From: Candidatus Peribacteraceae bacterium
Lineage (GTDB): Bacteria; Patescibacteriota; Gracilibacteria; Peribacterales; Peribacteraceae
NCBI GenBank assembly: GCA_018061945.1
Contig: JAGOTD010000001.1
Coordinates: forward strand, 1 to 64,000
DNA: 64,000 nucleotides
Direction of reading: 5' to 3'
Part shown: positions 2,457 to 63,576 of the stretch, piece after piece
Layout of the letters: each line of letters begins with the position of its first letter
Position numbering within the stretch: position 1 is the first letter of the stretch
Program-made: the position numbers and the translations under genes
Notes under the pieces: generated by a model
Told to the model about the DNA's origin: nothing
Seen by the model: only the letters and a program-made list of their open reading frames with translations
Databases searched by the model: none

Positions 2457-2612
2457 GGACTCAGAGGAAACAAAGGACTCAGAAGACTCAAAGGATTTTC
2501 TGGTATGAGCCTCTCATACTAGTGTAAGTATTGATAGTCACTCATAGGCAAGATACCCGTGGTACTCCCACTCATCTGAGTCTTTTGAGTCTTCTGAGTC
2601 CTTTGAGTCCTT
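2457..2612. repeat. GACTCA element 1, inverted arms around a spacer
   Basis: The left arm starts at the base after the TGA stop of the ligase gene. It is a 9-base tandem array with consensus RGACTCARA (about 2457-2497). The right arm (about 2572-2612) is its reverse complement, so the RNA could fold into a long hairpin. The spacer resembles that of the element at 3321-3477, sharing a TATGAGC word and the CCCGT...ACTCCCACTC stretch. It lies upstream of the aquaporin promoter, so it may serve as a terminator or 3' end structure. Confidence 0.85.
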
Positions 2613-2714
2613 ATTCATAATTTTACATATAGATAGCTTGCATATGCCGAAAAAATTTCCCTGATCTGTTTTTTGTCTGATAGAATTTCTGCATTCTGTC
2701 CTTTTCTCTCCCCC

Positions 2715-3320
2715 ATGAAAACTTTTCCGTTTACAAAATACATTGCAGAAATACTCGGCACCTTCACACTTGTACTCGCCGTCTCGCTCTCGCTGCTTGG
2801 TAAAATCGGCGCGCTGCCAACACCGCTTCTTGCCGCAATCGTCGTCGGTATTTTTGTCTACACTATTGGTGCAATAAGTGGTGCACACTTAAACCCGGCT
2901 GTAACCATTGGGCTTTGGAGCATCAAGAAAGTAAAAGTCAAAGAAGCGGTTTTGTATATCATCTCCCAGCTCATTGGTGCCGTTGCCGCCATGATGTTGC
3001 TTGCAGCATTTGCGTTTGACGAAACGAAAGTGACAGTGCAGGCCGACTTTTTGACCCTCTGCGCCGAAATAATCGGCACGTTCTTTTTAGCCTTCGGGAT
3101 TTGCTCAGTTGTCTACGGAAAAGTTGCCGATATGGCATCGGGTATTGTCATTGGCGGCTCTCTCCTGCTTGGTATTGTGATCGCCGCCGGACTTGGATCG
3201 AACGGCGTACTCAACCCGGCTGTGGCCTTTGGTATCGGCTCTGCCGGCCCTATGTATCTGCTTGGACCAATTGTCGGATCTGTCGCCGCCATGCAACTAT
3301 ATCGGTGGATGGCGAAGTAA
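2715..3320 (+). CDS. Aquaporin / MIP-family channel
   Basis: 201 residues, a normal size for a bacterial MIP channel. Six membrane segments can be seen, with the two half-helices carrying HLNPAVTIG and GVLNPAVAFG. These are the two NPA boxes that line the pore. In most aquaporins and glycerol facilitators the second NPA is followed by an arginine of the selectivity filter, but here it is valine. The pore may therefore be wider or less selective, and the substrate (water, glycerol or other small solutes) is uncertain. The ATG at 2715 follows an extended -10 box (TGATAGAAT near 2678) and a pyrimidine-rich leader. A longer ORF from 2673 would start upstream of that box and is unlikely. Confidence 0.9.
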   Translation: MKTFPFTKYIAEILGTFTLVLAVSLSLLGKIGALPTPLLAAIVVGIFVYTIGAISGAHLNPAVTIGLWSIKKVKVKEAVLYIISQLIGAVAAMMLLAAFAFDETKVTVQADFLTLCAEIIGTFFLAFGICSVVYGKVADMASGIVIGGSLLLGIVIAAGLGSNGVLNPAVAFGIGSAGPMYLLGPIVGSVAAMQLYRWMAK

Positions 3321-3477
3321 GGACTCAGACGAAACAAAGGACTCAGAAGACTCAAAGGAATGCGTACTATGAGCGTCCCGCCGATCGCGCAAGAAATAAC
3401 AATGACTGACGAGCAAGATTCCCGTTATACTCCCACTCCTCTGAGTCCTGTGAGTCTTCTGAGTCCTTTGAGTCCTC
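3321..3477. repeat. GACTCA element 2, inverted arms around a spacer
   Basis: It starts directly after the TAA of the aquaporin gene. The left arm runs about 3321-3359 and the inverted right arm about 3436-3477. The spacer shares words with elements at 2457 and 4866 (AGCGTC, AAGATTCCCGT), so the whole unit, not just the arms, is a dispersed family. Confidence 0.85.
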
Positions 3478-3529
3478 TTTATAGCAACAGACCGTATTTT
3501 ACCACTTGTAAGCAAGCATGCGCGGCCGC

Positions 3530-3535
3530 CATACT
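3530..3535 (+). promoter_or_regulatory. -10 box for a leaderless lipoprotein gene
   Basis: CATACT ends 8 bases before the ATG at 3544, so transcription would begin at or next to the start codon. A GTG at 3538 is in frame but sits too close to the box. Confidence 0.5.
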
Positions 3536-3543
3536 GCGTGCCT

Positions 3544-4437
3544 ATGCTTAAAAAACTTCTACTCCCTGCCTGCTTTGCGCCTATTACCATTGCATTACTT
3601 CTTTCAGCATGTGGTAAATCGACATCGAACAATTCGAATGATATTTCTGCCGCGCTCTCATCGGCTATTGCCGCAAAAAATACTCAGAATGGGACAGAAA
3701 CTGGCAGTGGGATCACACGCTCCACTCCTGCGCCCTCGCTGCGAACATTGTTCTACGGCTCGACGATTGAAAGTTATCAAACTCTCGATGAAGAGAAGAA
3801 CGTGATTGAAGCCGGCATATTTGTTCCCGTCAGCGCGATTGAAGACGCGAGTAAAGCTTTGGCTGTGAGTGGCAGTAGCTTGCCAGCGCCTGTTATTCAG
3901 CTAGATCTTCCAGCGGAAGTAAAAAAATCGACCTATTTGGATCACGTTGAAATTGCGTACATTCCAACCGTGAAAAACTCTACGGATCCGTACGCGCCGG
4001 GACATTTCGCGTTTCATTTTCTCACTGTTACGCCCGACCAGCAAAATAAGATTAACTGCCTTCTGACACTAGATGTATCGGCCGATCGCTTTCCCGATAG
4101 CTTCGCCATGAATAAGCCAGGCCTGCCGCCGACCGGTGATTGCGTTCCGTTCTTTGGCAATCGCGCCATCGACATTGCCGCTCCCGAGCAAGATTTAGTT
4201 AGAAAGCCGCTGTTCACTCATACGATGGCATTCCAATACTACAGTGGTCGTATTGTGGCTCTGACACCCATGATCACTCCGCAAGAATTCGCCAAAAAAA
4301 TGACTATCATGATGCCAATAAAACAGCCTATTACCATCGGCAAAGACACTCTCTTTCCCTCCCTTTTTAAAGTCACCTATGACCGGACCAAAAAAGCATA
4401 CAAGCTGGCCTTTTCGGAGTGGGTGATGATGAAGTAG
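3544..4437 (+). CDS. Lipoprotein of unknown function
   Basis: 297 residues beginning with a lipoprotein signal: basic MLKKLL, a hydrophobic core, then LLLSAC with the lipidated cysteine near residue 22. A Ser/Asn-rich linker follows, then a mostly beta-type globular domain. No catalytic motif is evident. I do not recognise the family. The protein should be anchored on the outer face of the cytoplasmic membrane. The start is placed at ATG 3544 because of the -10 box just upstream. A variant repeat element follows the stop directly. Confidence 0.75.
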   Translation: MLKKLLLPACFAPITIALLLSACGKSTSNNSNDISAALSSAIAAKNTQNGTETGSGITRSTPAPSLRTLFYGSTIESYQTLDEEKNVIEAGIFVPVSAIEDASKALAVSGSSLPAPVIQLDLPAEVKKSTYLDHVEIAYIPTVKNSTDPYAPGHFAFHFLTVTPDQQNKINCLLTLDVSADRFPDSFAMNKPGLPPTGDCVPFFGNRAIDIAAPEQDLVRKPLFTHTMAFQYYSGRIVALTPMITPQEFAKKMTIMMPIKQPITIGKDTLFPSLFKVTYDRTKKAYKLAFSEWVMMK

Positions 4438-4612
4438 AAGGAAGCAGAAGAAACAGATGATGCAGCCGTTCGAGGCCCTGACGGGCCCTCAGGCCCTGGA
4501 ACGGGAAGAACCAGAGGAAGCGTAGCAATGTGAGAAGGCAAAATGTTGCCGATACCATAAATGCCTCGAAATCCTCTGCATCGTCTGGCTCCTTTGGTTC
4601 TTCTGTTTCTAC
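4438..4612. repeat. Variant GATGCAG-type inverted element
   Basis: It begins right after the TAG of the lipoprotein gene. The arms use the words GAAGAAACAGA and GATGCAG and are inverted copies (about 4438-4470 and 4571-4612). Inside lies a smaller palindrome (about 4469-4504) with GGCCCTGACGGGCCCTCAGGCC. The layout is the same as the GACTCA elements but with a different word. Confidence 0.65.
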
Positions 4613-4620
4613 TTTGTGAT

Positions 4621-4629
4621 TGCTATAAT
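4621..4629 (+). promoter_or_regulatory. Extended -10 box, TGCTATAAT
   Basis: A near-consensus extended -10 box 41 bases before the ATG at 4671. The leader between them is almost wholly pyrimidine, and there is no Shine-Dalgarno site. Confidence 0.65.
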
Positions 4630-4670
4630 TCATCTCCTCACCTCTCTGTCCCCCTTTCACCCTCCCTCCC

Positions 4671-4865
4671 ATGGACCACGCCGAGATTCAGAAGAAATGC
4701 GAAGTATTCTTAACCGAACTGAATGCACCGGGCTTCATTGTGTTCGGCTGGCAAAAGAAAGATGCTGAGTTTGGCATTGTTTCGGCATTCAAAGATGTTC
4801 CTACCAATGCAGCTGTAAAGGGGCTGAGCTGGGCATTGAATGATTTTGTGGGTAAGAATTTATAA
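4671..4865 (+). CDS. Small conserved-looking protein, function unknown
   Basis: A 64-residue soluble protein with a mixed alpha/beta pattern. It starts with a charged helix (EIQKKCEVFLTEL), then two beta-like stretches around FIVFGWQ and FGIVSAF, and a closing helix. No signal peptide or membrane segment is seen. It has its own strong extended -10 promoter (4621-4629) and a CU-rich leader, which supports it as a real gene. The next element starts right after its TAA. Confidence 0.6.
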   Translation: MDHAEIQKKCEVFLTELNAPGFIVFGWQKKDAEFGIVSAFKDVPTNAAVKGLSWALNDFVGKNL

Positions 4866-5005
4866 AAGACTCAGAGGAAGCAAATGACTCAGAAGACTCA
4901 AAGGATTTTCTGCAATAAGCGTCCGACCCATAGTGGCAGTTTTGCTCGTAACTCATAGATAGGATTTCTGTGATACATCAATCCTCTGAGTCCTTTGAGT
5001 CCTTC
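4866..5005. repeat. GACTCA element 3 between convergent genes
   Basis: It fills the space between the stop of the 64-residue gene and the stop of the ABC exporter gene on the other strand. Left arm about 4866-4903, right arm about 4982-5004. The spacer has AATAAGCGTCC and ACTCATAGATAGGA, which resemble the spacers of elements 1 and 2. Its place suggests a two-way terminator. Confidence 0.85.
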
Positions 5006-8495: not shown

Positions 8496-8504
8496 GAGCT
8501 GGAA

Positions 8505-8667
8505 GCGATAAGCGGTTAGCGGCAAGCATGAAGGTATATTTTCTTAAAAAAATTTACAGAATCTTTTTGCTGAAAAACGAAAAGAGAAGCTACTCGCTTA
8601 TCGCTAACCGCTTGCCGCTTGTTTACTTATCGCTGCCCGCTTCTCGCTTCCCGCTTACCGCTCTCCT
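8505..8667. repeat. AAGCGATAAGCGG inverted element
   Basis: It starts about ten bases after the kinase stop. The left arm (about 8509-8528) carries GAAGCGATAAGCGGTTAGCG. The right arm (about 8594-8620) is its inverse and continues to 8667 with more degenerate copies of the same word. It resembles the GACTCA elements in layout but not in sequence. Confidence 0.8.
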
Positions 8668-24659: not shown

Positions 24660-24788
24660 AGAGGTAGGGATAATGGAGCTGAGGCGAAGTACGAGGTTCG
24701 AATTACGAATTACGATTTTAGATGTGACGGATTTGCGTAATTCGTACTTCGTGATTCGCAATTCGTCTTCGTGCAAGATAAAACATCA
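24660..24788. repeat. AATTACGA inverted repeat between atpA and atpG
   Basis: A left arm near 24690-24716 (GAATTACGAATTACGA) and a right arm near 24738-24770 (TAATTCGTACTTCGTGATTC) are inverted and degenerate. This is the same word as the long array at 34241. It sits within the operon, so it is transcribed. Confidence 0.7.
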
Positions 24789-26309: not shown

Positions 26310-26445
26310 GGGTGGCGGGTGGGAGAAATCCCAGAATCAGACAAGAAGTAAACGGGAAGCGATAAGTAGTAAGTGTAAAAAGAATTTCTCGTTTTGGTTG
26401 CTCAACGTACAATTCGTAATTCGTGATTCATAATTCGTAATTCGC
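26310..26445. repeat. AATTCGTA words between atpH and atpA
   Basis: About 26408-26445 has several degenerate AATTCGTAATTCGTGATTC copies directly at the atpH stop. It also has a GGGAAGCGATAAG word (about 26355-26368), like the element at 8505. Confidence 0.6.
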
Positions 26446-26856
26446 TTACGAAACAAGTGGCTGTAAAAAATACTCTGTCAGTGCATTAATATCGGACCGG
26501 ATACTGGTGTCGTACATTTCATCGCCAACGTGCAAAACGGCTCCGCCCAGAAGCGTTGGGTCCTTGGATTCACGCAGGTGCACTTTGCGTCCCAGTGCCT
26601 TTTCTATTTTCTTGTGCAGCCGTTCTTTCAGTTCGCCGCTATCGCCGCTTGGCGTAAACAGATGCGCGAACACCACCGAGTCTTGTTTTTCGAGCGCAGA
26701 AACAACGCGGCCTGGAAAATTCTTAAGATCGGATCTGCCTTTTTCCTCCAACATTTCAATTGCTTTGTTGCAGACATCGGCAAAATCTTTTTCCGGAATC
26801 GCTTTGGATAATTCCACAAGAGCCTGCGCGATGGCATCGGGATCAAAATTGCTCAT
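26446..26856 (-). CDS. atpH: ATP synthase F1 subunit delta, short form
   Basis: 136 residues against 170-180 in most bacteria. It keeps the C-terminal signature LRESKDPTLLGGAVLHVGDEMYDTSI-like region (in pieces: LLGGAVLHVG, YDTSIRSDI) that defines OSCP/delta. The N-terminal helical domain is reduced. Delta joins the top of F1 to the b-stalk. Its ATG overlaps the atpF stop (ATGA), so translation is coupled. Confidence 0.88.
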   Translation of the reverse strand: MSNFDPDAIAQALVELSKAIPEKDFADVCNKAIEMLEEKGRSDLKNFPGRVVSALEKQDSVVFAHLFTPSGDSGELKERLHKKIEKALGRKVHLRESKDPTLLGGAVLHVGDEMYDTSIRSDINALTEYFLQPLVS

Positions 26857-29323: not shown

Positions 29324-29380
29324 GGAAAAAGTATGCAGTATTCTGAATTCAGAATGAAGAATGTGCGAATTTTTTATATC

Positions 29381-29448: not shown

Positions 29449-29539
29449 ATTAAGGGAGTATCAATCATAGATACGTTTATCTTGGCCGTTGATTGCTTAC
29501 TTACAACATTCATAATTCATAATACGTAATACATAATTC

Positions 29540-30922
<1,383 letters not shown>

Positions 30923-34149: not shown

Positions 34150-34192
34150 AGGACTCAGAGGAAGCAAAGGACTCAAAAGACTCAAAGGATTT
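34150..34192 (+). repeat. GACTCA element, left arm only
   Basis: It follows the TAA of the methyltransferase gene at once. There is no right arm; instead the ATTCGTA array begins about 50 bases on. Confidence 0.8.
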
Positions 34193-34240
34193 TTGAATTT
34201 TCATCAATTGAATCATCTGCTCGTTTATGCATTCAAAATT

Positions 34241-34338
34241 AATTCGTAATTCGTAATTCGTAATTCGTAATTCGTAATTCGTAATTCGTAATTCGTAATT
34301 CGTAATTCGTAATTCGTAATTCGTAATTCGTAATTCGC
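34241..34338. repeat. ATTCGTA tandem array, about 14 copies of 7 bases
   Basis: AATTCGT is repeated about 14 times with no visible change. An ORF across it on the minus strand reads as ELRITNY repeats and is a by-product. Shorter and degenerate copies of this word are in the atp cluster (24690-24770, 26408-26445). Confidence 0.95.
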
Positions 34339-39330: not shown

Positions 39331-39461
39331 AAAGGACTCAGAGGAAGGAGAAGACTCAAAGGACTCAAAAGATACTTAGTTATTCATTGCATTCAAATAT
39401 GGAGTAGTGGGAATATAAAATATCCTTTGCTTCCTCTGAGTCCTTTGAGTCTTCTGAGTCA
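39331..39461. repeat. GACTCA element between convergent genes
   Basis: The left arm (39332-39372) starts after the TAA of the lipoprotein gene. The right arm (39422-39461) overlaps the TGA of mgtE on the other strand: the stop is the TGA of TGACTCAG. The spacer has GGAGTAGTGGGAATATAA, which looks like the inverted form of the spacer word in element 2. Confidence 0.88.
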
Positions 39462-40793
39462 TTTAATAAACGCCGATGCCAAACCTAAAAACGCCAGGAA
39501 GCCTACGACATCTGTTGCGGTCGTCACAAAAACGGTTGCCGAAATGGCTGGATCAATTTTGAGCGCCTTGAGCGCAAGCGGCACAATCGCTCCAAAAACA
39601 CCGGCGACGACGAGGTTAATGATCATGGAAAACAGCAAGATAATGGCAATGTTGGCAGTTCCATTGAGGAGAAACACCACTGTAGCCACAATGAGACCGT
39701 TGATGAGGCCGTTAATGAGGCCGGCAATCGCTTCTTTGCTGATGACATGCCACCACCAACCCTTGCGCCTGGTACCTTCGCCAAGTGCCAGACCACGCAC
39801 GACAACAGCCAGTGTCTGCGTTCCGGCATTGCCACCCATGCCAGCAACGATTGGCATGTAGGCTGCCAGTATGGCGGTTTTGGCAATTGTTCCCTGAAAC
39901 CGCGACACCACAAACGCAGCCAGAAAAGCGGTTGCCAAGTTAATAATGAGCCAGACGTACCGAAATTTTACCGCCGCAAATGCGGAGTCGGATAATTCTT
40001 CTTCTTTGTTTACACCGGCGAAGAGGTAGAAATCTTCTGTCGCCTCCATCTGAGCTACGCGCAGTAGATCTTGCAGGTGAATAACGCCGAGAAATTGATT
40101 ATCATCGACAACGCCAATGAGATCTGCTTTCTTCTGCGTTGCTATTTTCAGGACTTTTTCCTGATCCGTTTTGGACGAAGTGGTGACAAGAGGAGTGAGC
40201 AAATCCGCCACCGGCTTCGTCGGTGGGTTGAACATAAGAGTTCGATACGGCACAAACCCCAGCAAATGTTCGTGCGAATCGACAACGATCACAATCGGCG
40301 CCTGCTTGTGAACCTGCGCATGCTGACGGACTTTGTCGGACACTTCTTTGATGGTGCTCTCTTCGATGACGGTGATGAAGTTCAAGTCCATGAGTCCTCC
40401 AGCTGTATCGGGACTAAATTTAAGCAGCTTCTCGATTTTCGTCCGCTTATCATCTTTGATGTGTCGCAAAATAAGACTGCGACGTTCTTCGGGTAATTCG
40501 TGCAGCAAGTCGGCGGCATCATCCTCGTTATTGAAGTGCAGAAAACGAGCCAACGCGTGATCCGACAGACGCGGCAAAATGAACGCGCGCGTGTTTTCTG
40601 TAACGAGCAACGCCACTTCGGCCTGTATTTCTGGTGGCAGCAACACAAATGCCTTGCGCTTGCCGTGCGATAATCTGTCGAGCACAAGAGCAACGTCGCC
40701 ATGCCCATGACGCATCAGAAGATTTTTAAGTTTCAAATCTTCTTTTTTTCCGAGGAGGCCGTCGACGTGCTCAAGGAGGTTGGAAATTACCAT
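39459..40793 (-). CDS. mgtE: MgtE-family magnesium transporter
   Basis: 444 residues. An N-terminal helical MgtE_N domain (LHELPEERRSLILRHI), two CBS domains (about 130-250, with LLGFVPYRTL and FLGVIHLQDLL), then five membrane helices with the pore motif MPIVAGMGGNAGTQTLAVVVRG. It imports magnesium and is gated by the cytosolic domains sensing magnesium. The start at 40793 (MVISNLLEHV) is preferred; the longer ORF adds an unlikely 35-residue lead. The stop codon lies within the GACTCA element. Confidence 0.93.
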   Translation of the reverse strand: MVISNLLEHVDGLLGKKEDLKLKNLLMRHGHGDVALVLDRLSHGKRKAFVLLPPEIQAEVALLVTENTRAFILPRLSDHALARFLHFNNEDDAADLLHELPEERRSLILRHIKDDKRTKIEKLLKFSPDTAGGLMDLNFITVIEESTIKEVSDKVRQHAQVHKQAPIVIVVDSHEHLLGFVPYRTLMFNPPTKPVADLLTPLVTTSSKTDQEKVLKIATQKKADLIGVVDDNQFLGVIHLQDLLRVAQMEATEDFYLFAGVNKEEELSDSAFAAVKFRYVWLIINLATAFLAAFVVSRFQGTIAKTAILAAYMPIVAGMGGNAGTQTLAVVVRGLALGEGTRRKGWWWHVISKEAIAGLINGLINGLIVATVVFLLNGTANIAIILLFSMIINLVVAGVFGAIVPLALKALKIDPAISATVFVTTATDVVGFLAFLGLASAFIK

Positions 40794-41033: not shown

Positions 41034-41115
41034 ACTGACTCCTTTGATTTTTCTGCATCCTTCCTTTGAGTCCTCTGAGTCTTTTGAGTCTTCTGAGTCC
41101 TTTGCTCTGCATCCT
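41034..41115 (-). repeat. GACTCA array downstream of the DUF1624 gene
   Basis: Read on the minus strand, it begins a few bases after the stop at 41119 and has about seven 9-base units, with a GATGCAG word at each end. There is no clear inverted partner. The 40870-41030 stretch on its left has another word, GGTTGGGGTTAGGGATTGG. Confidence 0.75.
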
Positions 41116-41118
41116 CTA

Positions 41119-41883
41119 TTACATCATCAATTGCCACTTTCCAACTATCAGACTCAGCACCAAAAGAATCAGCGGCTGATGGATAAGATAAATCAGCAGT
41201 GAATAGCGTCCCGGCAGTCCGATGATGCCGATTGATCGATGACGGAGAAACTGATCGAGACGTTTTGTTCGCCAATGCGGATTGCGCACAAAGAAAAAAT
41301 GACCAATTGCAACACCAATGAGCACGACGCCAAACCATGGAAACAGCGGAAAATAATCGATGGTCTGAAAGCCGGTATACGTAATGCCAAACGGCAGTAA
41401 GAGTGATGAATGAATAAATATTGTACTCACGTATTTTCCTATGCATATAGACAAAATTCCGATCACAATATTATATTCTTTCAATCGATAAAAGAACGGC
41501 AGCACAAGAACGCTCACACCAATCAGATGTAAAATGCCGAACCGAACGTAGGTCTGTGTATCAAAAATATACGTCGTCAGGCTGATCAGTACTCCATAGC
41601 CGATGATCCGAAGACCGCGCCGAAGATATTTGCGATACACTAATTTGCCCGGATTCGCTGCAGTGCGCTGATACGACAAAACAAAGCTGATGCCGACCAG
41701 AATGAGAAAGAGCGATGCGCTGCAGACTTGAAATGTCTTCCAGAACGGTACAGAGAGATCGATCGAGGATGATCCGTACAGAAATTCCAAGTCGAACAGG
41801 ATGTGATAGATAACCATTAGAAAAATCGCAATCGTGCGTAGGAGATCGATTTCCGGATAGCGATGCTGCATTGAATGACTCAT
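41119..41883 (-). CDS. DUF1624 / HGSNAT-like acyltransferase membrane protein
   Basis: 254 residues with about seven helices. The N-terminus RYPEIDLLRTIAIFLMVIYH is the DUF1624 (PF07786) hallmark, with the helix-1 histidine of that family. Relatives include heparan-alpha-glucosaminide N-acetyltransferase and other membrane O- and N-acyltransferases, so it may acetylate surface sugars. The exact role is unknown. A TTACTAT box lies seven bases before the ATG. The two stop codons (TAA TAG) at the end are followed by the GACTCA array. Confidence 0.82.
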   Translation of the reverse strand: MSHSMQHRYPEIDLLRTIAIFLMVIYHILFDLEFLYGSSSIDLSVPFWKTFQVCSASLFLILVGISFVLSYQRTAANPGKLVYRKYLRRGLRIIGYGVLISLTTYIFDTQTYVRFGILHLIGVSVLVLPFFYRLKEYNIVIGILSICIGKYVSTIFIHSSLLLPFGITYTGFQTIDYFPLFPWFGVVLIGVAIGHFFFVRNPHWRTKRLDQFLRHRSIGIIGLPGRYSLLIYLIHQPLILLVLSLIVGKWQLMM

Positions 41884-43047: not shown

Positions 43048-43090
43048 AGGAGTCAGAGAAAACAAACGACTCAAAAGACTCAAAGGATTG
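43048..43090 (+). repeat. GACTCA array, single arm
   Basis: A run of 9-base units in the 370-base gap between the genes at 42919 and 43294. It starts with AGTCAGAGAAAACAAACGAC and has no nearby inverted partner. It is not next to a stop codon, unlike most copies. Confidence 0.7.
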
Positions 43091-48741: not shown

Positions 48742-49107
48742 ATGAGTACTGTTGTATTTCTTGCCGAAGATGAACCGCTCCTGCGTGAGATGATGGAAAT
48801 GGAACTGCGCGAAGCCGGCATGACCGTTCATGCATTGCGTAACGGAGCAGAATTGTTGGAGCTCCTAAGCACTAAACAGCCATCGATTATTTTACTTGAT
48901 TTACTGATGCCGGTCATGGATGGCTATGCGGTTTTACAACAATTGCAGCAACGCAAAACAACCACTCCCATCGTCGTATTATCGAACATCAGTGATCCGG
49001 CCGAAGAGCAGAAATGCCTGTCACTTGGCGCCTGCGATTTTTTGATCAAAAGTCATTTGGACTCAACCGAACTTGGAAATATTGTGCTGAAGTATGTATC
49101 GAAGTAA
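48742..49107 (+). CDS. Single-domain response regulator
   Basis: 121 residues, one receiver domain: acidic pair in VFLAEDEPLL, phospho-acceptor in IILLDLLMPVMDGY, switch Ser in VVLSNIS and Lys in FLIKSHL. No output domain. It is an orphan without a kinase nearby. The TAA is followed at once by a GACTCA element. Confidence 0.92.
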   Translation: MSTVVFLAEDEPLLREMMEMELREAGMTVHALRNGAELLELLSTKQPSIILLDLLMPVMDGYAVLQQLQQRKTTTPIVVLSNISDPAEEQKCLSLGACDFLIKSHLDSTELGNIVLKYVSK

Positions 49108-49232
49108 GGACTCAGAGGAAACAGAGGACTCAGAAGACTCAAAGGATTTAAGTATTTTGAATAATCAGATTCTGAGGTTGTGTTCCTTCATTCCTCTGTT
49201 TCGTCTGAGTCTTTTGAGTCCTCTGAGTCCTT
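49108..49232. repeat. GACTCA element after the response regulator
   Basis: Left arm 49108-49148 starts at the base after the TAA. Right arm about 49192-49232 is inverted. The spacer (about 45 bases) is unlike the others, so arms are more conserved than spacers. Confidence 0.85.
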
Positions 49233-49314
49233 ATCCTGACAATCGTTCGTTACACTCTACTTTCGCCTTGCTGCCAATTTGAGCAAACAACCAAAAGTGA
49301 GTAGGCTGTAGCTC

Positions 49315-51958: not shown

Positions 51959-52049
51959 AAAAAAGGGGGGAGGTAAAGTAACTATAATTTATATTAAAAC
52001 ATACTTTATTAAAATATACAATATATTTAACTACAAATTTAAATGTATT

Positions 52050-52085
52050 CAAGCACTCCCCGCTCCAAATGAGCGAGGAGTGCTT
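52050..52085 (-). terminator. Hairpin AAGCACTCC...GGAGTGCTT
   Basis: A 15-base stem with a short loop, 15 bases after the stop at 52100. It has no long T-run. A near copy is at 53658. Confidence 0.65.
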
Positions 52086-52099
52086 CAATTACAAGAATA

Positions 52100-52591
52100 C
52101 TAACTATGGATACAAGCAATGTAAGTATTCCATGCGTTTTTTTCATCAAGTGTTGCTTGTGCAAATGCCAAAGCTGCGTTGTCTTGTGCAATTTTCGCTG
52201 CATTAGTTGCAGCGATTGCTGCGTTCATTGCCGCAAAGGTGGTATCTCTTGCATTTACCCACTCAGCTCTCGTGTTATACGGATAATACATATTATTTTG
52301 CTGTATAGGGCGCACTAATGGTATCCCTTTAATAATTTGGTAATTTTGCACAGCTTGTGCCTCATCCTTTTGTGCATTTTTTAAAGAATTCCTTGCATCC
52401 TTGTAAGCTTTTTCCGCTGCTATAACTGCATACATTGCACCCATAAATGAATCAAGTTCATCACTACAATCTGGTTCGTCGCCGCCTCCTGTTGGAGGAT
52501 CTGCGTATGTTGTAGGAACAAATGCAGTGGCAGAAGGTAATAAAATCATGATGCTCATCGTGAGCGATACCAATTTTTTTCTACTATTCAT
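52100..52591 (-). CDS. Secreted helical two-cysteine protein, paralogue A
   Basis: 163 residues. The signal peptide ends near TTYA/D (residue 31), then PTGGGDEPDCS holds the first cysteine. The end is YIACIHS. In between are two alanine-rich helices joined by a loop with YYPYNTRAEW. The first 43 codons are the same as those of the gene at 53708 apart from one silent base; the mature part is homologous but mostly different. It lies 32 bases after the 159-residue gene and is probably in one operon with it. Function unknown. Confidence 0.78.
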   Translation of the reverse strand: MNSRKKLVSLTMSIMILLPSATAFVPTTYADPPTGGGDEPDCSDELDSFMGAMYAVIAAEKAYKDARNSLKNAQKDEAQAVQNYQIIKGIPLVRPIQQNNMYYPYNTRAEWVNARDTTFAAMNAAIAATNAAKIAQDNAALAFAQATLDEKNAWNTYIACIHS

Positions 52592-53127
52592 TGTTGGAAA
52601 GAGAAAAGAAATAAAAAAAGAAACTACGCAGCCATACAGACGTCGTAGTCTTCCAATGCCCCATCTAAGGCATCGTAATCAATTGTCTCATACAGAGCAT
52701 CCCATGACGATTGAAGTGATGCGACTGATCCAGACATCGTAGCGTGAGAGACAAAATTTGCACTGGCAACACTATTCGTAGACGAAGCAAGAGATTGAGT
52801 GCTACTAGTGGCAATTTCACTACCAGTAGCAGTAGCATAAAATGTCTCGAGCATATCTGATGTGTCTTCGATAATAGTAGCCATGCTGCTACGCAAAGAA
52901 TAAATTGAGCCAGACAAAGTAGCCATACTAGAGTCGATACCATTGAGCGACGAGTAGGCTGCCTCTACGGCTGCCCATTCGGTGGTGCAGTCGTTTGTGC
53001 CGTGTGCTGTGGGCGGTTGATACGCGGTGGTGATACCAGTGACGGCAAGAATGCCGGCAAGTATCAATCCCGATTTCTTTCTGACGGAGAAGGAATGGAG
53101 CATAGAACAGGAAAGGAAAAAGTAATT
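52462..53127. repeat. 666-bp segmental duplication, copy 1
   Basis: It matches 54064-54729 with one difference that I could see (T at 52538, C at 54140). It covers the leader and all of the 159-residue gene, the 32-base gap, and the first 43 codons of the next gene. Homology stops sharply on both sides. Confidence 0.95.
52624..53103 (-). CDS. Secreted helical two-cysteine protein, duplicate of 54226
   Basis: 159 residues. The signal peptide ends near HG/TNDC or slightly before. The first cysteine is in TNDCTTEW and the second in DYDVCMAA. The mature part is helix-prone and rich in Ser, Ala and Thr. The protein is identical to the one at 54226. The -10 box differs (TATAGT, 53133-53138, against TATACT for the other copy), so the two copies may be expressed at different levels. 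Function unknown. Confidence 0.78.
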   Translation of the reverse strand: MLHSFSVRKKSGLILAGILAVTGITTAYQPPTAHGTNDCTTEWAAVEAAYSSLNGIDSSMATLSGSIYSLRSSMATIIEDTSDMLETFYATATGSEIATSSTQSLASSTNSVASANFVSHATMSGSVASLQSSWDALYETIDYDALDGALEDYDVCMAA

Positions 53128-53261
53128 CCTTTACTATATTCGCTTCATGCAGATTAACGATTGTCAGAGCAGTAAATAAAATATTTACTAGCACAATGGC
53201 AAGAATTATTCCTTGTTTATCGAATATTATATTTGCCTACTTTTATTTTAGACACTATTTT

Positions 53262-53492
53262 TTACAGCTGTGTTGTAAATATCCTATCGCCGGATATGGC
53301 CTGACCATCCTGTGCATTTTTGGAGATAATGCGATAATGGTACAGCATATTTGGCAAGAGCCTCATTATTGTCTGGGCATGGTCGAGCTGGAGTGTAGCG
53401 TCGAATGATGTCGATGATCCGTACGACATTGTTGTTCCGTATTCGATGAGTGAATCACTTGGCTCATCGGTGGACCACTTTACAAACTCTGT
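53262..53492 (-). pseudogene. Remnant of a giant adhesin gene, last fibronectin-like repeat
   Basis: The minus strand reads KWSTDEPSDSLIEYGTTMSY, then later LPNMLYHYRIISKNA and ends RIFTTQL and a stop. This matches the last repeat of the giant protein at 54860 (SWSTNEQTDAMVEYGLTTAY, LTPNTLYHYRVVSKDA, QTFTTLP). The frame is closed by a TGA just upstream, near 53493-53495, and no start or signal exists. So it is a decayed 3' end of a second giant gene, in the same place relative to the 159-residue gene as the intact copy. Confidence 0.8.
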
Positions 53493-53494
53493 TC

Positions 53495-53657
53495 AAACTA
53501 TTTCGAATTTTGCATGATAAATCTTCGCAAGATTGGTCAAACTTCATCCAATGCCTTCCGAATACCTCTATCTTCTTTTTACGCTTTATTCTATGTCTCT
53601 CTGTAGCATTTAGAACTTTTTTGTACCAAGGAATTATATGATAACTTTACGTCTACC
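53495..53657. other. Degraded region upstream of the adhesin remnant
   Basis: AT-rich, with many stops in all frames. On the minus strand it could hold more decayed coding sequence from the lost giant gene, but I cannot align it by eye. Confidence 0.35.
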
Positions 53658-53694
53658 CAAGCACTCCCCGCTCCAAATGGGCGGGGAATACTTG
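53658..53694 (-). terminator. Hairpin CAAGCACTCCCCGC...GCGGGGAATACTTG
   Basis: A near copy of the hairpin at 52050, 13 bases after the stop at 53708. The stem is about 14 bases with small mismatches. Confidence 0.65.
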
Positions 53695-53707
53695 AGTTAC
53701 ACGCATG

Positions 53708-54193
53708 CTAACTATTGAGGCAGGCTATGACATCTGCATATGCTAGATGTGCAGCTTGCTGTGCACGTGCTAATAAAACTGATTTATCTATTTCTTCTTT
53801 CTGTGCGGCACGTTTTGCCGCTATTGCTGTAGCATGTGCAACTTTCGCCGCGTCTCTTGCTACGATCCATGCAGCCCTATTGGCATAAGGACTATATGGA
53901 GCACTCGGACTTCCAGCACTCGGTATTAATGTTATTAAACGTAGCGCCGTAAAAGTGGCAGCTTCATCTTTTTCCGCAGCTCTAGCAGCCTGGCGTGCAA
54001 CGTTGGCAGCGGTAGCTGCTACTTTTACCTGCGCTGCTAAAGCAGCCCACAACAATATTTCAGCACTACAATCTGGTTCGTCGCCGCCTCCTGTTGGAGG
54101 ATCTGCGTATGTTGTAGGAACAAATGCAGTGGCAGAAGGCAATAAAATCATGATGCTCATCGTGAGCGATACCAATTTTTTTCTACTATTCAT
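53708..54193 (-). CDS. Secreted helical two-cysteine protein, paralogue B
   Basis: 161 residues. It has the same signal peptide and first cysteine as the gene at 52100 (DEPDCS), then departs: AEILLWAALAAQVKVAATAA and two Ala/Arg/Lys-rich helices around a loop with YSPYANRAAW. It ends VIACLNS. The loop and end positions match those of paralogue A, so the fold is shared while the surface has changed. It lies 32 bases after the 159-residue gene at 54226. Function unknown. Confidence 0.78.
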   Translation of the reverse strand: MNSRKKLVSLTMSIMILLPSATAFVPTTYADPPTGGGDEPDCSAEILLWAALAAQVKVAATAANVARQAARAAEKDEAATFTALRLITLIPSAGSPSAPYSPYANRAAWIVARDAAKVAHATAIAAKRAAQKEEIDKSVLLARAQQAAHLAYADVIACLNS

Positions 54194-54729
54194 TGTTGGA
54201 AAGAGAAAAGAAATAAAAAAAGAAACTACGCAGCCATACAGACGTCGTAGTCTTCCAATGCCCCATCTAAGGCATCGTAATCAATTGTCTCATACAGAGC
54301 ATCCCATGACGATTGAAGTGATGCGACTGATCCAGACATCGTAGCGTGAGAGACAAAATTTGCACTGGCAACACTATTCGTAGACGAAGCAAGAGATTGA
54401 GTGCTACTAGTGGCAATTTCACTACCAGTAGCAGTAGCATAAAATGTCTCGAGCATATCTGATGTGTCTTCGATAATAGTAGCCATGCTGCTACGCAAAG
54501 AATAAATTGAGCCAGACAAAGTAGCCATACTAGAGTCGATACCATTGAGCGACGAGTAGGCTGCCTCTACGGCTGCCCATTCGGTGGTGCAGTCGTTTGT
54601 GCCGTGTGCTGTGGGCGGTTGATACGCGGTGGTGATACCAGTGACGGCAAGAATGCCGGCAAGTATCAATCCCGATTTCTTTCTGACGGAGAAGGAATGG
54701 AGCATAGAACAGGAAAGGAAAAAGTAATT
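54064..54729. repeat. 666-bp segmental duplication, copy 2
   Basis: The partner of 52462-53127, offset by 1602 bases. See that entry for content. Confidence 0.95.
54226..54705 (-). CDS. Secreted helical two-cysteine protein, duplicate of 52624
   Basis: 159 residues, identical to the product at 52624: signal peptide, Cys in TNDCTTEW, a Ser/Ala/Thr-rich helical body (TLSGSIYSLRSSMATI, SVASLQSSWDALYE) and Cys in DYDVCMAA. It lies 154 bases after the giant prepilin-adhesin gene on the same strand, with its own TATACT box (54735-54740) and a CU leader (CTTTTTCCTTTCCTGTTCT). It could be a partner of the giant protein. Function unknown. Confidence 0.78.
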   Translation of the reverse strand: MLHSFSVRKKSGLILAGILAVTGITTAYQPPTAHGTNDCTTEWAAVEAAYSSLNGIDSSMATLSGSIYSLRSSMATIIEDTSDMLETFYATATGSEIATSSTQSLASSTNSVASANFVSHATMSGSVASLQSSWDALYETIDYDALDGALEDYDVCMAA

Positions 54730-54859: not shown

Positions 54860-57800
54860 CTACGGCAACGTCGTAAACGTCTGGTCTTCCGAGACCGTCT
54901 GTCCGCCGTTTGCGTCTTTGGACACGACACGGTAGTGATACAACGTATTAGGTGTGAGTGGCGTTAAGAGTTCGGAGTGATCTATGCTCAGCGTCGCATT
55001 GAGTGCTGTAGACGAACCGTAGGCAGTCGTGAGTCCGTATTCGACCATCGCGTCTGTCTGCTCATTGGTAGACCAGGAGATAGCTGCATTGGTTTGCCCG
55101 ATAGGCGAAGCAGAAACAGAATTGATAATCGGCGGTGCGTTGATGGTCGTAAAATCGTAATCAATAGAAATGTTCTGATTGCCGGATTTATCACTGGTTT
55201 TAATACGATAGTGATAGGTTGTCAGTTCGCTCAGCGGCGAGACGGCTACTACATGCGCTGTTACAAGCGCAGGATCGAGGATAGTCGTAAGGCCATAGGC
55301 ATTCGTAAGGCCGTATTCGATTTGCGACGTTGCCGGTTCATCGGTGGAAAATACCAGTCGCGCACCAGTGCCGGTAATCGTAAGTGGTGCAACCGCCGAG
55401 ATAACCGGCGGAACGAAATCCAGTATATAATTTGGCGAAATGCCAAGATTGCCCGACGCATCGCGCGAGCGAACGCGGAATTGATAGAGCGAATTGGGCT
55501 GGGGAACGGTCACTGTTTGGGTGTGCGTTGTGACCAAATTCGAATCGAGCGCAGTGGTATTGCCATACGCAGTTGTCACTCCCCATTCAATTTGCGAATT
55601 GGAAATCTCGTTCGTTGTCCAGGTAACGGTTGCAAGAGTCGGAGCGGTTGTCACCGAGTCGACTGTCAGGAATACCGGAGAGGTTGTATCGGGTGTCGTG
55701 AAGCTTCGGTTATTGGACATGCCAAGATTGCCGGTAATATCTTTTGATTTGACGCGATACTGATACGTCGTATTGGGCGCCAGTCCGACAATTGTCACAC
55801 TATGCCCAGCAGTGTAAGCAGTCGGCAGCGTCGTCGATGTACCATACGCGGTGGTTGGACCGTATTCCACCTGGCTGTCGGCATTTTCGTTGGTATCCCA
55901 GGAGATAATGGCCGTCGTATCCGTGAGCGGACCGGACACAAGGCTGAAAACGGCTGGCGGCGTAATATCGGCTTGTGTTGTGAACGTATATGTCTGCGTC
56001 GACACACCTGTATTTTGTGCCAAGTCGGTTGATCGTACGCGGAAATAGTAGAGGGTACTGCCAGTCAGATTCGACAGGTTCATGCTGTGATTTGTGACCG
56101 ATGTCGTCGGAAGAGTAGTCGACAAACCGAGAGCGGACGTAAGTCCGTACTCCACTTGGCTGTCGCTCAATTCATCGGTGAGCCAGGTGATAACCGCTGT
56201 GCTGGCAGTAATGCTTCCGACGTTGATGGAGAAGAATTGCGGCGGAGTTGAGTCGCTGGTTAAGAAGGTACGATCGGTTGTGGTGGTCAAATTACCCGCG
56301 CTGTCGCGGGACTTGATACGATAATGATACTCGGTATTTCCCTGCAGGCCCGTAATGGTTTGTAAGTGATTCACCTGGAGTGAGGAGTCCAGTGTTGTCG
56401 ATGTTCCGTAGTTTGTCGTTGTACCGTACTCCACCTGCGAATCGGCTGTCTCGTTGGTAACCCAGCTCACACTCTGGCTGCTGTCTGACACATTTCTTGA
56501 CACAATGGATGAAATAATCGGCGCAGTGGTGTCAGGTGTCGTGAAGACGAAGTCGGTTGAATACCCGATATTGGCGGCGCCATCGACGGATTTGACGCGG
56601 AAATGATAGGTAGTATTCGACGTAAGTCCGGTGAGCGTCTGGCTATGGCTTGTGACCAACGCAGCATCAACCGTATTGCTGAATTCATAAGGAGGAACGG
56701 CACTGGTCGGATCGTACTGGATTTGGGATGTTGACGCCTTGTTTGTCGTCCACGTAATGCGCACGGAGGTATCAGTAAGAATCGTTGCCACAACAGACGA
56801 GAAAATCGGCGGCTGTGTATCGAGAGTGGTAAATGAACTCCCCGTCGATAGTCCCAAGTTACTGGCTGTATCCTGGGAACGAGCACGCAAGAAATACTGC
56901 GTATTCGGCGTCAATCCTGTAAGGAAAATGCTATGACCACTCGACATAATCGGGTTAATTGTCGTCTGCGTACCGTAACTGGTAGTAAGTCCATATTCCA
57001 CCTGCGAATCGGCTACTTCATTGGTTGTCCATGTCACGAGCGCCGATGTACCAGTGATGGCCGAAACAGTAGTCGCAGAGAGAATAGGCTCCGCCGTATC
57101 AGAAATCGTAAAGACGCCGTCGCCGGAAATAGTCAGATTACCGGCCAGATCTTTCGTTTTAACGCGATAATGATATTGCTGTGCCGGCACAATGCCCAAA
57201 ACAGTCACCGAGTGACTGGTAACACCCGTCGCATCGGCAGGCACCGTAGGGTAGAAAGATCCATAGGCGGTTGTCGGGCCGTATTCCACCTGCGAATCGG
57301 ATGCCTCATTGGTTGTCCAGGTAATGGCGACGCTGTTTTGCCCTGCCAGTGAAGAGGTTGGTCCCGTCTGAATGGACGGCGCAGTGACATCGGTCGAGAA
57401 TGTCGCATCCGGACCGACGACCGTATTGCCGAACCGATCTTTGCTGGTGACACGGTAATGATAGGTGTTGTTAGGAGACAGGTTGGAGAAAATGGCAATG
57501 CTATGGGGATTGGCAACCTGCGTACTATTGATGACGGAGTATCCGTACGCCGTTGTCAGACCATATTCAACTTTGGTGTCGGACCTCTCGCTCGTACTCC
57601 AATTGATGATACAGCTGGTGCCCGTAATATTGGAGGCAGACGACGGCACAGTAATGGTCGGAGGAATGGTATCAAAGATCCAACCGCGCGATGGCGTCAT
57701 ATTTGTTGAGGCATCAGCGGATTTCAGCCGGAAATGATACGTATTACCCGGCGTCACTGCAATCGGCAGTGAGCGACTAAAGACCAATGCCGGATCTGGA

Positions 57801-60800
57801 GAGGCTGGAGAAAAAGTGCCGTAGGAAGGCGTTAGGCCATATTCCACCTGCGAATTGGCGATTTCAGATGTGTTCCATGTCACTGTCGCGGTGGTACCTG
57901 CTGTGTCGACGAGTACGCCTGTTGCGCTGTAGATCGGTGCGACAAAATCACCCGAAGTTGCAAACGAATAAGGTCCGTACGTTGCGGTATTCCCTACTCC
58001 ATCACGCTGCGTAATGGTGTACTGATAACTGGTTGCCGGCCTAAGACTGCTCAGCGACACTGAATGAGACGAGATGAGGTTCGCTCCCGATATCGCCCAC
58101 AGATTGATGAGACCACCACTGCCGTACTTCACTCTATCGGTCGATGGCTCATCGGTTGTCCAGGTGATGGTGGCAGCATTTGCCGTTGCCACAACGCTCG
58201 GACCGACTGTAATGACAGGAGCATCGGTATCCCAATTGCCAGTGCGTGCGGCAAGTCCGGCAGCCGTCGCGTCATCAATGGCATAGTTATACACACGGAA
58301 TTCATCAAGATATCCCCCAAAGAAACTGCTCGTTCCCATGCTGCTAGCAGCATATTGGCCAATAGCAAAATAGAACGTTGTTGTTCCATTGGTCCATGGA
58401 GTTGCACGCGAGACGCCGTTTAACGGAGCGGATTTCACGCTGTTTAAGAAGCCGTCGAGCCTGCTTGCGGTTTTGTCGTAGCGCACGATCGCATGATTCC
58501 AGTTATTAAAGTTGGCACCCCCCAGCGTAATCGGCGTCAAATTCCAGACGCGCGCTTTGACGACACCGGCTGGAGATACTTCCAACTGGCTGTTACGCCA
58601 GTAGTTTGGATCTCCATTTTCCTGCACGATAACACCGGCAGTAGTAGGATAAAACCAAATGGAAAACGAGATCGAATCATCGCGTATGTAGGGTCGCAGA
58701 TCGGGTGTGGCCATCGAGTGAGTGGTTCCGTTGAGCTGCATACTCTTTACGTTGCCCGATGCAATGGGAGCACGAATGGAAGCGGAGTTTCCAGGTGAAT
58801 TTGCTTTCGCCCCATTCAATGCGTATGGTCCGTTGTCCAGTGCCACAGAGGCGCTTGGTTCGTCGAGTTGCCATTGACCGATCATCCCTGCTACCACCGG
58901 ATTGAGAGTGGTAAACGAACCAGTGTATGTTGATACGTTTTCCGCAGCATCCCTCGAGGTAATGCGATAGTAGTAGGTAGTCGCCGGACTGAGTCCGGTT
59001 ATAAGCGGAACAGAATGATTCGCTTGATAACTGGTGATCGTGTTGACAGTAAGGCCATACGAGGTTGTTGGTCCATAATCCACTTTATCCAGTGTCTGCT
59101 CACTTGTACTCCACTGCACGGTCGCCGATGAATTGGTAATATTCACAACTGCTGGACTACTGATGACCGGAGGCGTGACATCGATGGCAACGTTACTCGC
59201 TGCAGCCGCCTGAATTTCGGCTTGCGACAGAACTTTATTGTAAAAACGCAGATCATCTATTTTTCCTGCAAACGAACTCGGTGAGCCGGTCACGGCTCCT
59301 CCCAGCACAGGATCGATGGAGTTAACGACATTGTATGATGTTCCGCTCGCCCGCAGCGTTCCATTCACATATATTTTTCGCAAGCTCGCATCTTGCGTGA
59401 CAGCAACATGCTGCCATGCGCCGGGGGTAAGATTTCCGTAGAGCATTGCTCCGCCATAGCTATTAAATTGCCATTGGTTGTTTCCGTTAATACCCAGATA
59501 CCATGTGTTAAATCCGCCATAAGTACCACGAGTCACCACTGCCCTCCAGCCTGATGGAGTGGCAGGGACGTACGCCCACAGCATGATGGTTGTCGGTTGC
59601 GATGTACTGAAAATTGTATTACTCAGATTGCCGAAAGAAGCATAGTTCGTTGTGCCATTAAAACTGATGCTACGCACGTTTGGCAACGCAGACGTTGTCG
59701 GCGGCAGACTGGTGTCTATGGACGTGCCACTTACGAGGGCGCCATTTTGCGCATTGCCACCAGAATCGCTGGCCACCGTTCCACTTGTTTCATCGAATTT
59801 CCAGTAATAGATAAGATTGGGAAATGGCGGTGTAACGGTTGAAAAGGTCGCAGTCGTTGAAGCTGATTGATAGCCGTGTGATTCGCGCGACAGTACGCGG
59901 AAATTATAGGTCGTCCCGACTGTCAGACCTGTGACCCACATCGCATGCGATGTGACATAGGCTGAATCTAACGCCGTTTGTGAACTAAAACTTAGGTCAG
60001 TACTGTAGACTACTTGTGAGGTGGAAGGCACATCGGTTGTCCACGTGATGAGCGTTTTCCACTGCGTTGTCGCTGCGCCCGAAGCAGTGACCGTACTTAT
60101 GACCGGGAAAAAGCTTTTGGCAGAGAAAGTATAGTTAGTCGATGACAGCACGTTACCGGCACTATCGCGGGATTTCAGCTGATAATTGTACGTGGCGCTT
60201 GGTGTAAGATTGATCAATTTCTGCGAGTGAGTGGTGACATACGCGCCGCTGAAGGTTGTTGCATTGCTGTAGGCTGTGGTAAATCCATAGAGGATTTGTG
60301 TCGTTGACGGCTCGTCGGTTGTCCAGGTGATGACAGCCGATGTTCCGGTGTTCTGGGTGATGACAGGACCGCCAGTAATAACCGGCGCAACGACATCGAC
60401 AGTCGTAAATGTCAGATCGTTCGATAGCGCCATATTTCCCAGCGCGTCGGCAGTGCGAATGCGATAATGATAGAGCGTATTCACCGTTAAAGACGAAAGA
60501 ACAATCGTGTGCGTTGTCACACCTTGCGGATCGGCGGGAATAAACGGTTGGCGCGGTCCGTAGCTGGCAGTTATTCCGTAATCAATTTGAGAGTCGGCGT
60601 TTTCGTCGGTCGTCCAAGTAATGGTGGCACTGGTACCGTCGGTACTGACAGCACTGATGTTGGAAATAACGGGCGGCACCGAGTCGCGAGTTGCAAAGGA
60701 ATACTCGGGCGACGTGGTGAGATTTCCAGCCGCGTCGCGCGAAAGAACGATGTAGTAATACGTCGTTTGCGGAACAAGTCCCAGCATCTGAATGGAATGC

Positions 60801-62353: not shown

Positions 62354-62373
62354 AATCACAAAATTTTCTTTAC

Positions 62374-62382
62374 AGTATAGCA
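62374..62382 (-). promoter_or_regulatory. Extended -10 box TGCTATACT for the giant adhesin gene
   Basis: It ends 20 bases before the ATG at 62353 and overlaps the start of the longer ORF. Confidence 0.65.
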
Positions 62383-62519
62383 TATATTACCTCTGATTGT
62401 TGACATAATTGTTCTATAAAGTACTATTATTAATTTTCGTCAATATTACAAAGGTGTAAGGAGGAGGGCAGTTGTACGTCTTAAGATATATATCTTTTTT
62501 CTCTTTCTTCTGTATTTTT

Positions 62520-62886: not shown

Positions 62887-63420
62887 ATGCACTCACGTAT
62901 GCTTGCTTTTTTTGTCGCCACTCTCGCTCTTATCGGGTGTGCTTCGCATACATCTAATCCTCTCCTCCCCTCCTCTTCGTCCTCTTCTTCTCTGCAAGCG
63001 ACTCCTTCGTCTAGTCGATCAGAAACGAGTGATATTCCAACCGATGCGCAGCTCAAAAAAATACTAAGTCCTCTTGCCTACTCCGTCTTACGCCAAGGTG
63101 CAACCGAGGTGCCGTTTACGAGTGACTTACTGCACGAAAATCGTACAGGAACGTATGTGACTGCCGACTGCAACGAGCCGGTTTTCCGATCGGAACAAAA
63201 GTTCGATTCTGGTACCGGCTGGCCCAGTTTTTGGGCGCCGATTACAGCCGATGCAGTGATTCTGGAAGAAGATACGACACTCGGCATAACGCGCACCGAA
63301 GTACGCAGCAAGAAATGCAACAGTCACCTCGGACATGTGTTCGATGATGGACCACTGCCAACAGGAAAGAGGTATTGCATAAACGGCGTGGCGCTTAAGT
63401 TTGTGGCGGATGCGGAATAA
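62887..63420 (+). CDS. msrB: Exported peptide-methionine (R)-S-oxide reductase, lipoprotein
   Basis: 177 residues. A lipoprotein signal (LALIGC, Cys near residue 18) and a serine-rich linker (to about 48) lead into a full MsrB domain: KFDSGTGWPSFWAPI, RTEVRSKKCNSHLGHVFDDG and the catalytic Cys in GKRYCING. A further Cys in SKKCNS could resolve the disulfide. The usual zinc-binding CxxC pairs are not complete (ADCNEP only). It should repair oxidised methionine in surface proteins. The TAA is followed at once by a GACTCA element. Confidence 0.93.
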   Translation: MHSRMLAFFVATLALIGCASHTSNPLLPSSSSSSSLQATPSSSRSETSDIPTDAQLKKILSPLAYSVLRQGATEVPFTSDLLHENRTGTYVTADCNEPVFRSEQKFDSGTGWPSFWAPITADAVILEEDTTLGITRTEVRSKKCNSHLGHVFDDGPLPTGKRYCINGVALKFVADAE

Positions 63421-63576
63421 GGACTCAGAGGAAACAGAAGACTCAAAGGACTCAAAAGAAAGACGCTATAGTTGTGTCGGTCATAGAGGAAGAATCGATT
63501 ATAGTCCATAAATATGATGCATGTGATTTCTCATTCCTTTGTTTCCTCTGAGTCCTTTGAGTCTTCTGAGTCCTTA
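63421..63576. repeat. GACTCA element that forms the end of the EVE-domain gene
   Basis: The left arm (63421-63460) starts right after the msrB stop. The right arm (63535-63576) is read through by the EVE-domain gene on the other strand, which takes its last 14 residues and stop from it. The spacer has GACGCTATAG and TAGAGGAAGAATC, like parts of other spacers. Confidence 0.88.

Follow-up and report, generated by a model that had tools for sequence, protein, structure and literature searches.

Repeat arrays in the 64-kb window

The DNA analysed here (the window) is a stretch of 64,000 nucleotides, G000:C2:1-64000, from the genome of a Candidatus Peregrinibacteria bacterium (G000; 1.37 Mb in 15 contigs, GC 48%, completeness 94.6%). 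The 1051 genes of this genome were predicted with a simple purpose-written gene finder and have approximate borders, mainly at the starts; the stop codons used for distances are those of long, well-scoring ORFs. The ORFs of the window are accompanied by short arrays of tandem units, standing singly or as pairs that form hairpins (Table 1), and those built from the 9-nt unit RGACTCARA are referred to as family A.

Table 1. Tandem-unit arrays and hairpins in the window, with their relation to neighbouring ORFs.
Feature	Position	Strand	Context
Family-A hairpin	2457-2612	+	Directly 3' of the stop of the ORF ending at 2456; four 9-nt units in each arm, at 2457-2495 (+) and 2575-2612 (-)
Family-A hairpin	3321-3475	+	Directly 3' of the stop of the ORF ending at 3320; spacer related to those of 2457 and 4867
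F-type hairpin, related (GGAAGCAGA/GAAACAGA/GATGCAGC units)	4431-4610	+	At the end of the ORF ending at 4437
Family-A hairpin	4867-5004	+	Between the stops of convergent ORFs (ends ~4865 and 5009); two clear units in the right arm
Converging heptamer arrays, AGCGGTT type	8497-8662	+	Gap without arrays in the sister genome G001
Heptamer array, CGAATTA type	24685-24718	+	
Heptamer array, CGAATTA type	26411-26444	-	~1 nt past the stop of minus-strand ORF 26446-26856
Heptamer array, GAATTAT type	29508-29546	-	Overlaps the stop of ORF 29540-30904 (minus strand); paired with the array 29330-29363
Single family-A array	34150-34189	+	After the stop of the ORF ending at 34149; GAAAC/GAACC units at the orthologous G001 site
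Perfect CGAATTA heptamer array, ~14 units	34240-34337	-	Faces the family-A array 34150-34189
Family-A hairpin	39331-39464	+	Fills the gap between two convergent stops
Single family-A array	41062-41100	-	~18 nt past the stop of minus-strand ORF 41119-41871
Degenerate single family-A array	43049-43087	+	No stop codon adjoining
Family-A hairpin	49105-49233	+	Hairpin base includes the TAA stop 49105-49107
Family-A hairpin	63417-63577	+	Left arm directly past the stop at 63420; right arm 63538-63573

Two-unit matches to RGACTCARA with up to three mismatches number 44 in the window, against 0.54 expected and a maximum of three in 100 shuffles, and all nine sites at which a first-pass annotation of the sequence had noted units of this type are present, as are all six of the inverted second arms it described. 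That annotation had most units starting 0-3 bases after a stop codon, which holds for seven sense arms (0, 0, 1, 1, 3, 0 and 0 nt past the stops of the ORFs ending at 2456, 3320, ~4865, 34149, 39330, 49107 and 63420, respectively) and fails for the minus-strand array at 41 kb (41065-41100; 18 nt) and for that at 43049-43084. The likeness it saw between spacers is visible in 2457, 3321, 4867 and an extra copy at C7:255365, whereas most other copies have unrelated spacers; its suggestion that 39331 is the same element turned around finds no support in the arms, since AgAA comes first there as it does in 2457. Predicted RNA folds give -72 kcal/mol (z -6.8) for the 2457 hairpin and a very stable stem (z -6.6) for the arm at 49108 with its facing arm. 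The right arm of the 63421 element lies in frame within the C-terminus of the minus-strand ORF 63531-64037 (..KDSEDSKDSEETKE*). No Rfam family matched the window above its gathering score.

The window contains further features. The ~14 perfect CGAATTA units at 34240-34337 are a recent slippage expansion of an array. At 52035-54705, direct copies ~1.6 kb apart (52457-52756 and 54059-54358, 99% identical) cover a duplicated 159-aa ORF and have a flanking 87-nt repeat (77%), and 54860-62383 is a single minus-strand ORF of 2507 aa.

Architecture and placement across the genome

The first impression of a real dispersed family is confirmed by the whole genome, which holds 86 family-A arrays. A family-A arm nearly always has four units of 9 nt, which read RGA-CTC-ARA or show the variants AAC or AGC, and GGA comes after the last unit. 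At least six unit families, RGACTCARA among them, are present in G000, and the feature is a class with many unit words and not one family; further words are of 9 nt (GTANNGTAN, RGANNCCAA, RGAACCAGA and AGGGCAGAA) or of 7 nt (CGAATTA, AGCGGTT and AGAACGT), and each unit combines nearly fixed positions with two or three that vary freely. The lag spectrum of all intergenic DNA has 58 segments at period 7, 86 at period 9 and five at period 8, plus multiples, with almost nothing beyond these and none in shuffled sequence; the strong periods are only 7 and 9 and their multiples. A scan with a laxer threshold than that of the lag spectrum yielded 332 tandem arrays, 295 of them intergenic. Array lengths peak at 30-35 nt for period 7 and at 38-43 nt for period 9, which is about four units for both, and 3.5-5 units are found in 99 of the 128 intergenic arrays of period 7 and in 128 of the 167 of period 9.

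A search for inverted repeats found 122 in G000, all but three of them (119) intergenic, and none in a Markov control of one contig; GC-rich REP-like palindromes aside, they are mostly tandem arrays. Two converging arrays make up an imperfect inverted repeat of ~65-210 nt: in gaps with two arrays the pair converges in 62 of 62 cases, with the purine-rich strand inward, and among the 295 intergenic arrays the complement lies 3' of the purine strand in 180 and 5' of it in 3. Single arrays and pairs of mixed family are both present, and about a third of the stop-adjacent arrays have no partner arm. Family-A elements have in common an inherited left/right polarity, the variant second unit occurring in exactly one arm in 17 of 18 elements (P=0.0001), and because of this polarity the two arms of an element are less alike than swapped arms; the idea that arms are in-place inverted copies of each other was rejected accordingly. 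Spacers are shared by only a handful of family-A copies, and the conserved interior typical of a MITE was not found.

Placement at stop codons was assessed for the 134 arrays whose purine strand lies behind a same-strand stop. In 69 of them the distance from stop to array is at most 5 nt. Arrays placed at random within these gaps would lead to an expectation of 11 of 134, rising to 24 (maximum 33) in a variant that forbids up to 100 nt before every start, and the excess at stop codons survives both controls. In convergent pairs one element serves both stops, as had been proposed from the window: the residual gap has a median of 8 nt, compared with 93.5 nt for convergent gaps that are empty. 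Among gaps of 80-300 nt, arrays are found in 37 of 87 convergent, 74 of 280 codirectional and 26 of 116 divergent ones.

Arrays inside genes and in related genomes

Single arrays also stand in frame in conserved genes, namely carA, an RluF/RluB-like pseudouridine synthase gene, yebC and rsmA (named by PDB matches). Further genes that carry such arrays are, judged by their sequence, a putative carB, glycosyltransferases and a sortase, and other arrays form C-termini that end at the stop, for example in a putative lgt and a putative dihydroorotate dehydrogenase. The carA gene of G000 (G000:C7:78783-79934; L051:18783-19934) was compared with the stretches L204, L205, L206 and L207. Its array translates as KDSEDSKDSKDSE and occupies a loop of which mitochondrial CPS1 has a shorter version; this loop holds a GACTC array in G000, a GAAAC/GATGC array encoding KETEETDDAEETEE in G001, a sister genome of the same genus, and heptamer arrays in two other genera, GGGTCAG-like in G025 and GAATTAC in G003. 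A second carA loop has heptamer arrays in G025, G003 and G011. Judging from these sequences, carA looks like a repeated landing site for arrays, and the first loop, with four different arrays in four genomes, offers a ready natural experiment. In a Bacteroidaceae gcvPB-like gene (L177:101-1666), two tandem-heptamer inverted pairs lie in frame at 175-250 and 1070-1156, and one of these pairs coincides with a 21-residue gap in the Thermus protein.

The distribution of the unit words among relatives is patchy. Exact matches to RGACTCARA number 109 in G000, 12 in G001 and 0-4 in other members of the family, and the CGAATTA and GTANNGTAN words are equally scattered. Samples from other genera have the same architecture with other words (among them AATGTAC, AGTATGC, AATTGAC and GAATCCGAA), and in several samples from relatives, including 75 kb of G027, arrays are weak or absent. 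Outside Peregrinibacteria, exact matches to family A resemble coding sequence or perfect repeats, and the presence of this family in other phyla was rejected.

Comparison of G000 with 363 kb of G001 provided 194 syntenic gaps, with arrays in both genomes in 28, in G000 only in 27 and in G001 only in 14. The gap at 39331-39458, for instance, measures 128 nt in G000 and 14 nt in G001. At 34150, 49108, C9:268359 and C4:34941 there is an array in both genomes, of the GACTC type in one and of the GAAAC/GAACC type in the other. That at least four loci have arrays of different type in the two species could also mean selection for having one, although their number does not exceed that expected from chance overlap. 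Arrays that are retained show no greater conservation than the remaining gap sequence (78% versus 83% identity between G000 and G001). No target-site duplication was seen at the presence/absence sites, whose flanks have diverged too far.

Origin of the arrays and comparison with known systems

Several unrelated unit families are dispersed in this genome with a common architecture, are gained, lost and replaced at orthologous sites, and are concentrated at stop codons. With modest confidence, we favour the view that the arrays are dispersed, replaceable elements of an insertion type that settle at harmless sites, chiefly behind stops, and whose module comprises some four units of 7 nt or 9 nt in tandem. 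Arrays would be copied from a within-genome pool by a process of insertion or recombination, and selection would retain them only where they do no harm: behind stops, in gaps, at C-termini and in surface loops. Two arrays would usually converge in a gap to give the imperfect inverted repeat, and in a gene the single array would stand alone in frame. The process or the site probably prefers the stop codon, because the placement is tighter than tolerance alone predicts. As a side effect, the hairpin would probably become the 3' end structure of the mRNAs of neighbouring genes, and it may have a part in forming mRNA 3' ends, either incidentally or through later recruitment. Dispersal by insertion or replacement of the array module, together with selection, explains most of the data. 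Against this view it counts that no mobilising enzyme was found, that most copies of the same family share arms and not spacers, which simple transposition of a whole element would not give, and that so flush a fit at stops suggests some function or targeted placement.

The arrays might instead be functional 3' end hairpins, acting as bidirectional terminators or RNA-decay barriers, which selection maintains where transcription units end, with the tandem units merely the origin of the stem. Such hairpins would sit well with the flush position of arrays at stops, which in convergent gaps holds at both ends, with the more frequent occupation of convergent than of divergent gaps of 80-300 nt, and with the great stability of the predicted RNA stems (z about -6.7). 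T is also slightly raised just past the second arm, at ~0.4 for positions +1 to +4 and near 0.3 thereafter (examples are CCTTATTCAT and CCTTCTCCCT), and canonical U-tract terminators are scarce in G000. In codirectional gaps, canonical hairpins with a U-tract stand at 0.09 on the coding strand versus 0.07 on the opposite strand; given that they are barely commoner on the coding strand, a distribution complementary to that of the arrays could not be shown. A reading as terminators only fails, however, because arrays occur in divergent gaps as well, single arrays stand in frame within housekeeping genes, about a third of the stop-adjacent arrays lack a partner arm, and mismatches on the coding strand have no excess of G-U over A-C (65 versus 77), so that a constraint on pairing at the RNA level was rejected. 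Arms also resemble their own partners less than they do the arms of other elements, and the stem is followed by no strong U-tract of the kind that marks an intrinsic (Rho-independent) terminator. We consider 3' end hairpins unlikely as the primary explanation, although they deserve to be taken seriously. The first-pass annotation had offered a two-way terminator, a protector of mRNA 3' ends and a mobile element with a preference for stop codons; an inserted element that favours stops fits best, while an obligate two-way terminator fits poorly with the divergent gaps, the arrays in genes and the missing G-U bias.

Replication slippage, producing ordinary simple-sequence repeats that are tolerated outside genes, has clearly generated some arrays, such as the expanded CGAATTA array at 34240-34337, and the excess of heptamers seen in bacteria has been connected with slippage of the polymerase (PMC4692102). 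As a general origin it is improbable, given that array lengths peak at about four units with no tailing off and that dozens of loci have one degenerate word in common; neither the fixed inward orientation nor the anchoring at stops is expected from slippage, and the statistics of length and orientation already disfavour it. We judge it quite improbable that the arrays belong to a REP or MITE family whose mobility is due to a known transposase, for example the Y1 (RAYT-type) enzymes of G000. Four Y1_Tnp genes are present in this genome (G000:C7:5771-6097, C10:16724-16912, C9:143846-144130 and C7:316102-316314), the elements are small, dispersed and inverted, and a handful of family-A copies have common spacers; but no Y1 transposase was found linked to the arrays, whose presence is uncorrelated with Y1 genes (G027 has six of these genes and no strong array in 75 kb), and RAYT was rejected as the driver. 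The arms, moreover, are built as tandem arrays in place of a single palindrome, there are unpaired arrays as well as pairs of mixed family, and no target-site duplication was seen in the strongly diverged flanks of presence/absence sites. Near two of the Y1_Tnp genes there are GC-rich palindromes that look like ordinary REPs, unlike the arrays. Recognition words for DNA uptake, which form inverted pairs in terminators in Neisseria and Haemophilus, are brought to mind by the 9-mers of G000, which stand behind genes as inverted pairs and, as inferred from the array scan, amount to about one unit per kilobase. Uptake words, however, are single and uniform, whereas here one genome has several unrelated words, always in tandem groups of about four, which makes this origin hardly credible.

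Among known systems, Rickettsia palindromic elements are small, inverted, and occur between genes as well as in frame within them. By description, the G000 arrays are like them in lying in frame in coding genes (the carA loop and others), and differ in being built of tandem 7-nt or 9-nt units and in having single arrays as their in-gene copies. REP/REPIN sequences with RAYT are, like the G000 elements, dispersed extragenic inverted repeats often found behind genes; a REP, however, consists of one short palindrome tagged with GTAG or CGTC (PMC3733652), whereas the arms in G000 are tandem arrays whose presence is independent of Y1 genes. The TAACTGA heptamers described by MacGregor in Beggiatoaceae, some Cyanobacteria and Bacteroidetes (PMC4679880) share with our arrays the form of short intergenic tandem sets with a patchy distribution across distant lineages. 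Unlike the G000 arrays, they lie mainly before start codons, toward which most are oriented, and nearly all are direct sets, a single indirect repeat having been reported against 169 direct ones (PMC4679880).

The closest counterpart is provided by the heptamers GGGAATC and GGGGA(C/T)T that Rehm and colleagues reported from Xanthomonas and Nostoc (PMC4692102). These are intergenic, mostly of four units with degenerate positions, form 70-75 convergent pairs per genome in Xanthomonas and come closest to stops on the coding strand, overlap with the stop included; their length and sequence vary between sister species, and no mobilising element is known for them (PMC4692102). The G000 arrays are likewise mostly of four units, in convergent pairs and stop-proximal on the coding strand, and the first-pass view that no described family combines this sequence and placing must be amended: while the sequence is new, its placing and architecture were already described for these heptamers. 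In place of one G-rich 7-nt GGGANTN word per genome, G000 has several families with 7-nt and 9-nt units and other words, family A being of 9 nt, and it differs further in its tighter anchoring at stops, its in-gene copies and the replacement of arrays at one locus. G-quadruplexes were proposed as the reason for four units in Xanthomonas and Nostoc (PMC4692102), a reason that cannot be general, since four GGG runs are found in only one of the 295 intergenic arrays of G000; with the four-unit rule kept by 7-nt and 9-nt arrays that lack G-tracts, something other than a G-quadruplex would set the number.

In open-access papers we found no account of such repeats in Peregrinibacteria or CPR, nor of such 9-nt arrays, several families per genome or in-place replacement. 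The class itself is already known, mainly from two unrelated bacteria, and its 9-nt units, multiple families and in-place replacement would be new. If a single process accounts for the spread of these arrays in distant phyla, it would be an unrecognised force reshaping gene ends and protein loops. We put forward tentatively, as a conjecture that may well prove wrong, that four-unit arrays with 7-nt or 9-nt units form, whatever their word and unit length, a single class of mobile element spanning phyla, which a dedicated unit-counting machinery places at stops and in protein loops; the repeats of Xanthomonas, Nostoc, Bacteroidota and Peregrinibacteria would all be cases of this class.
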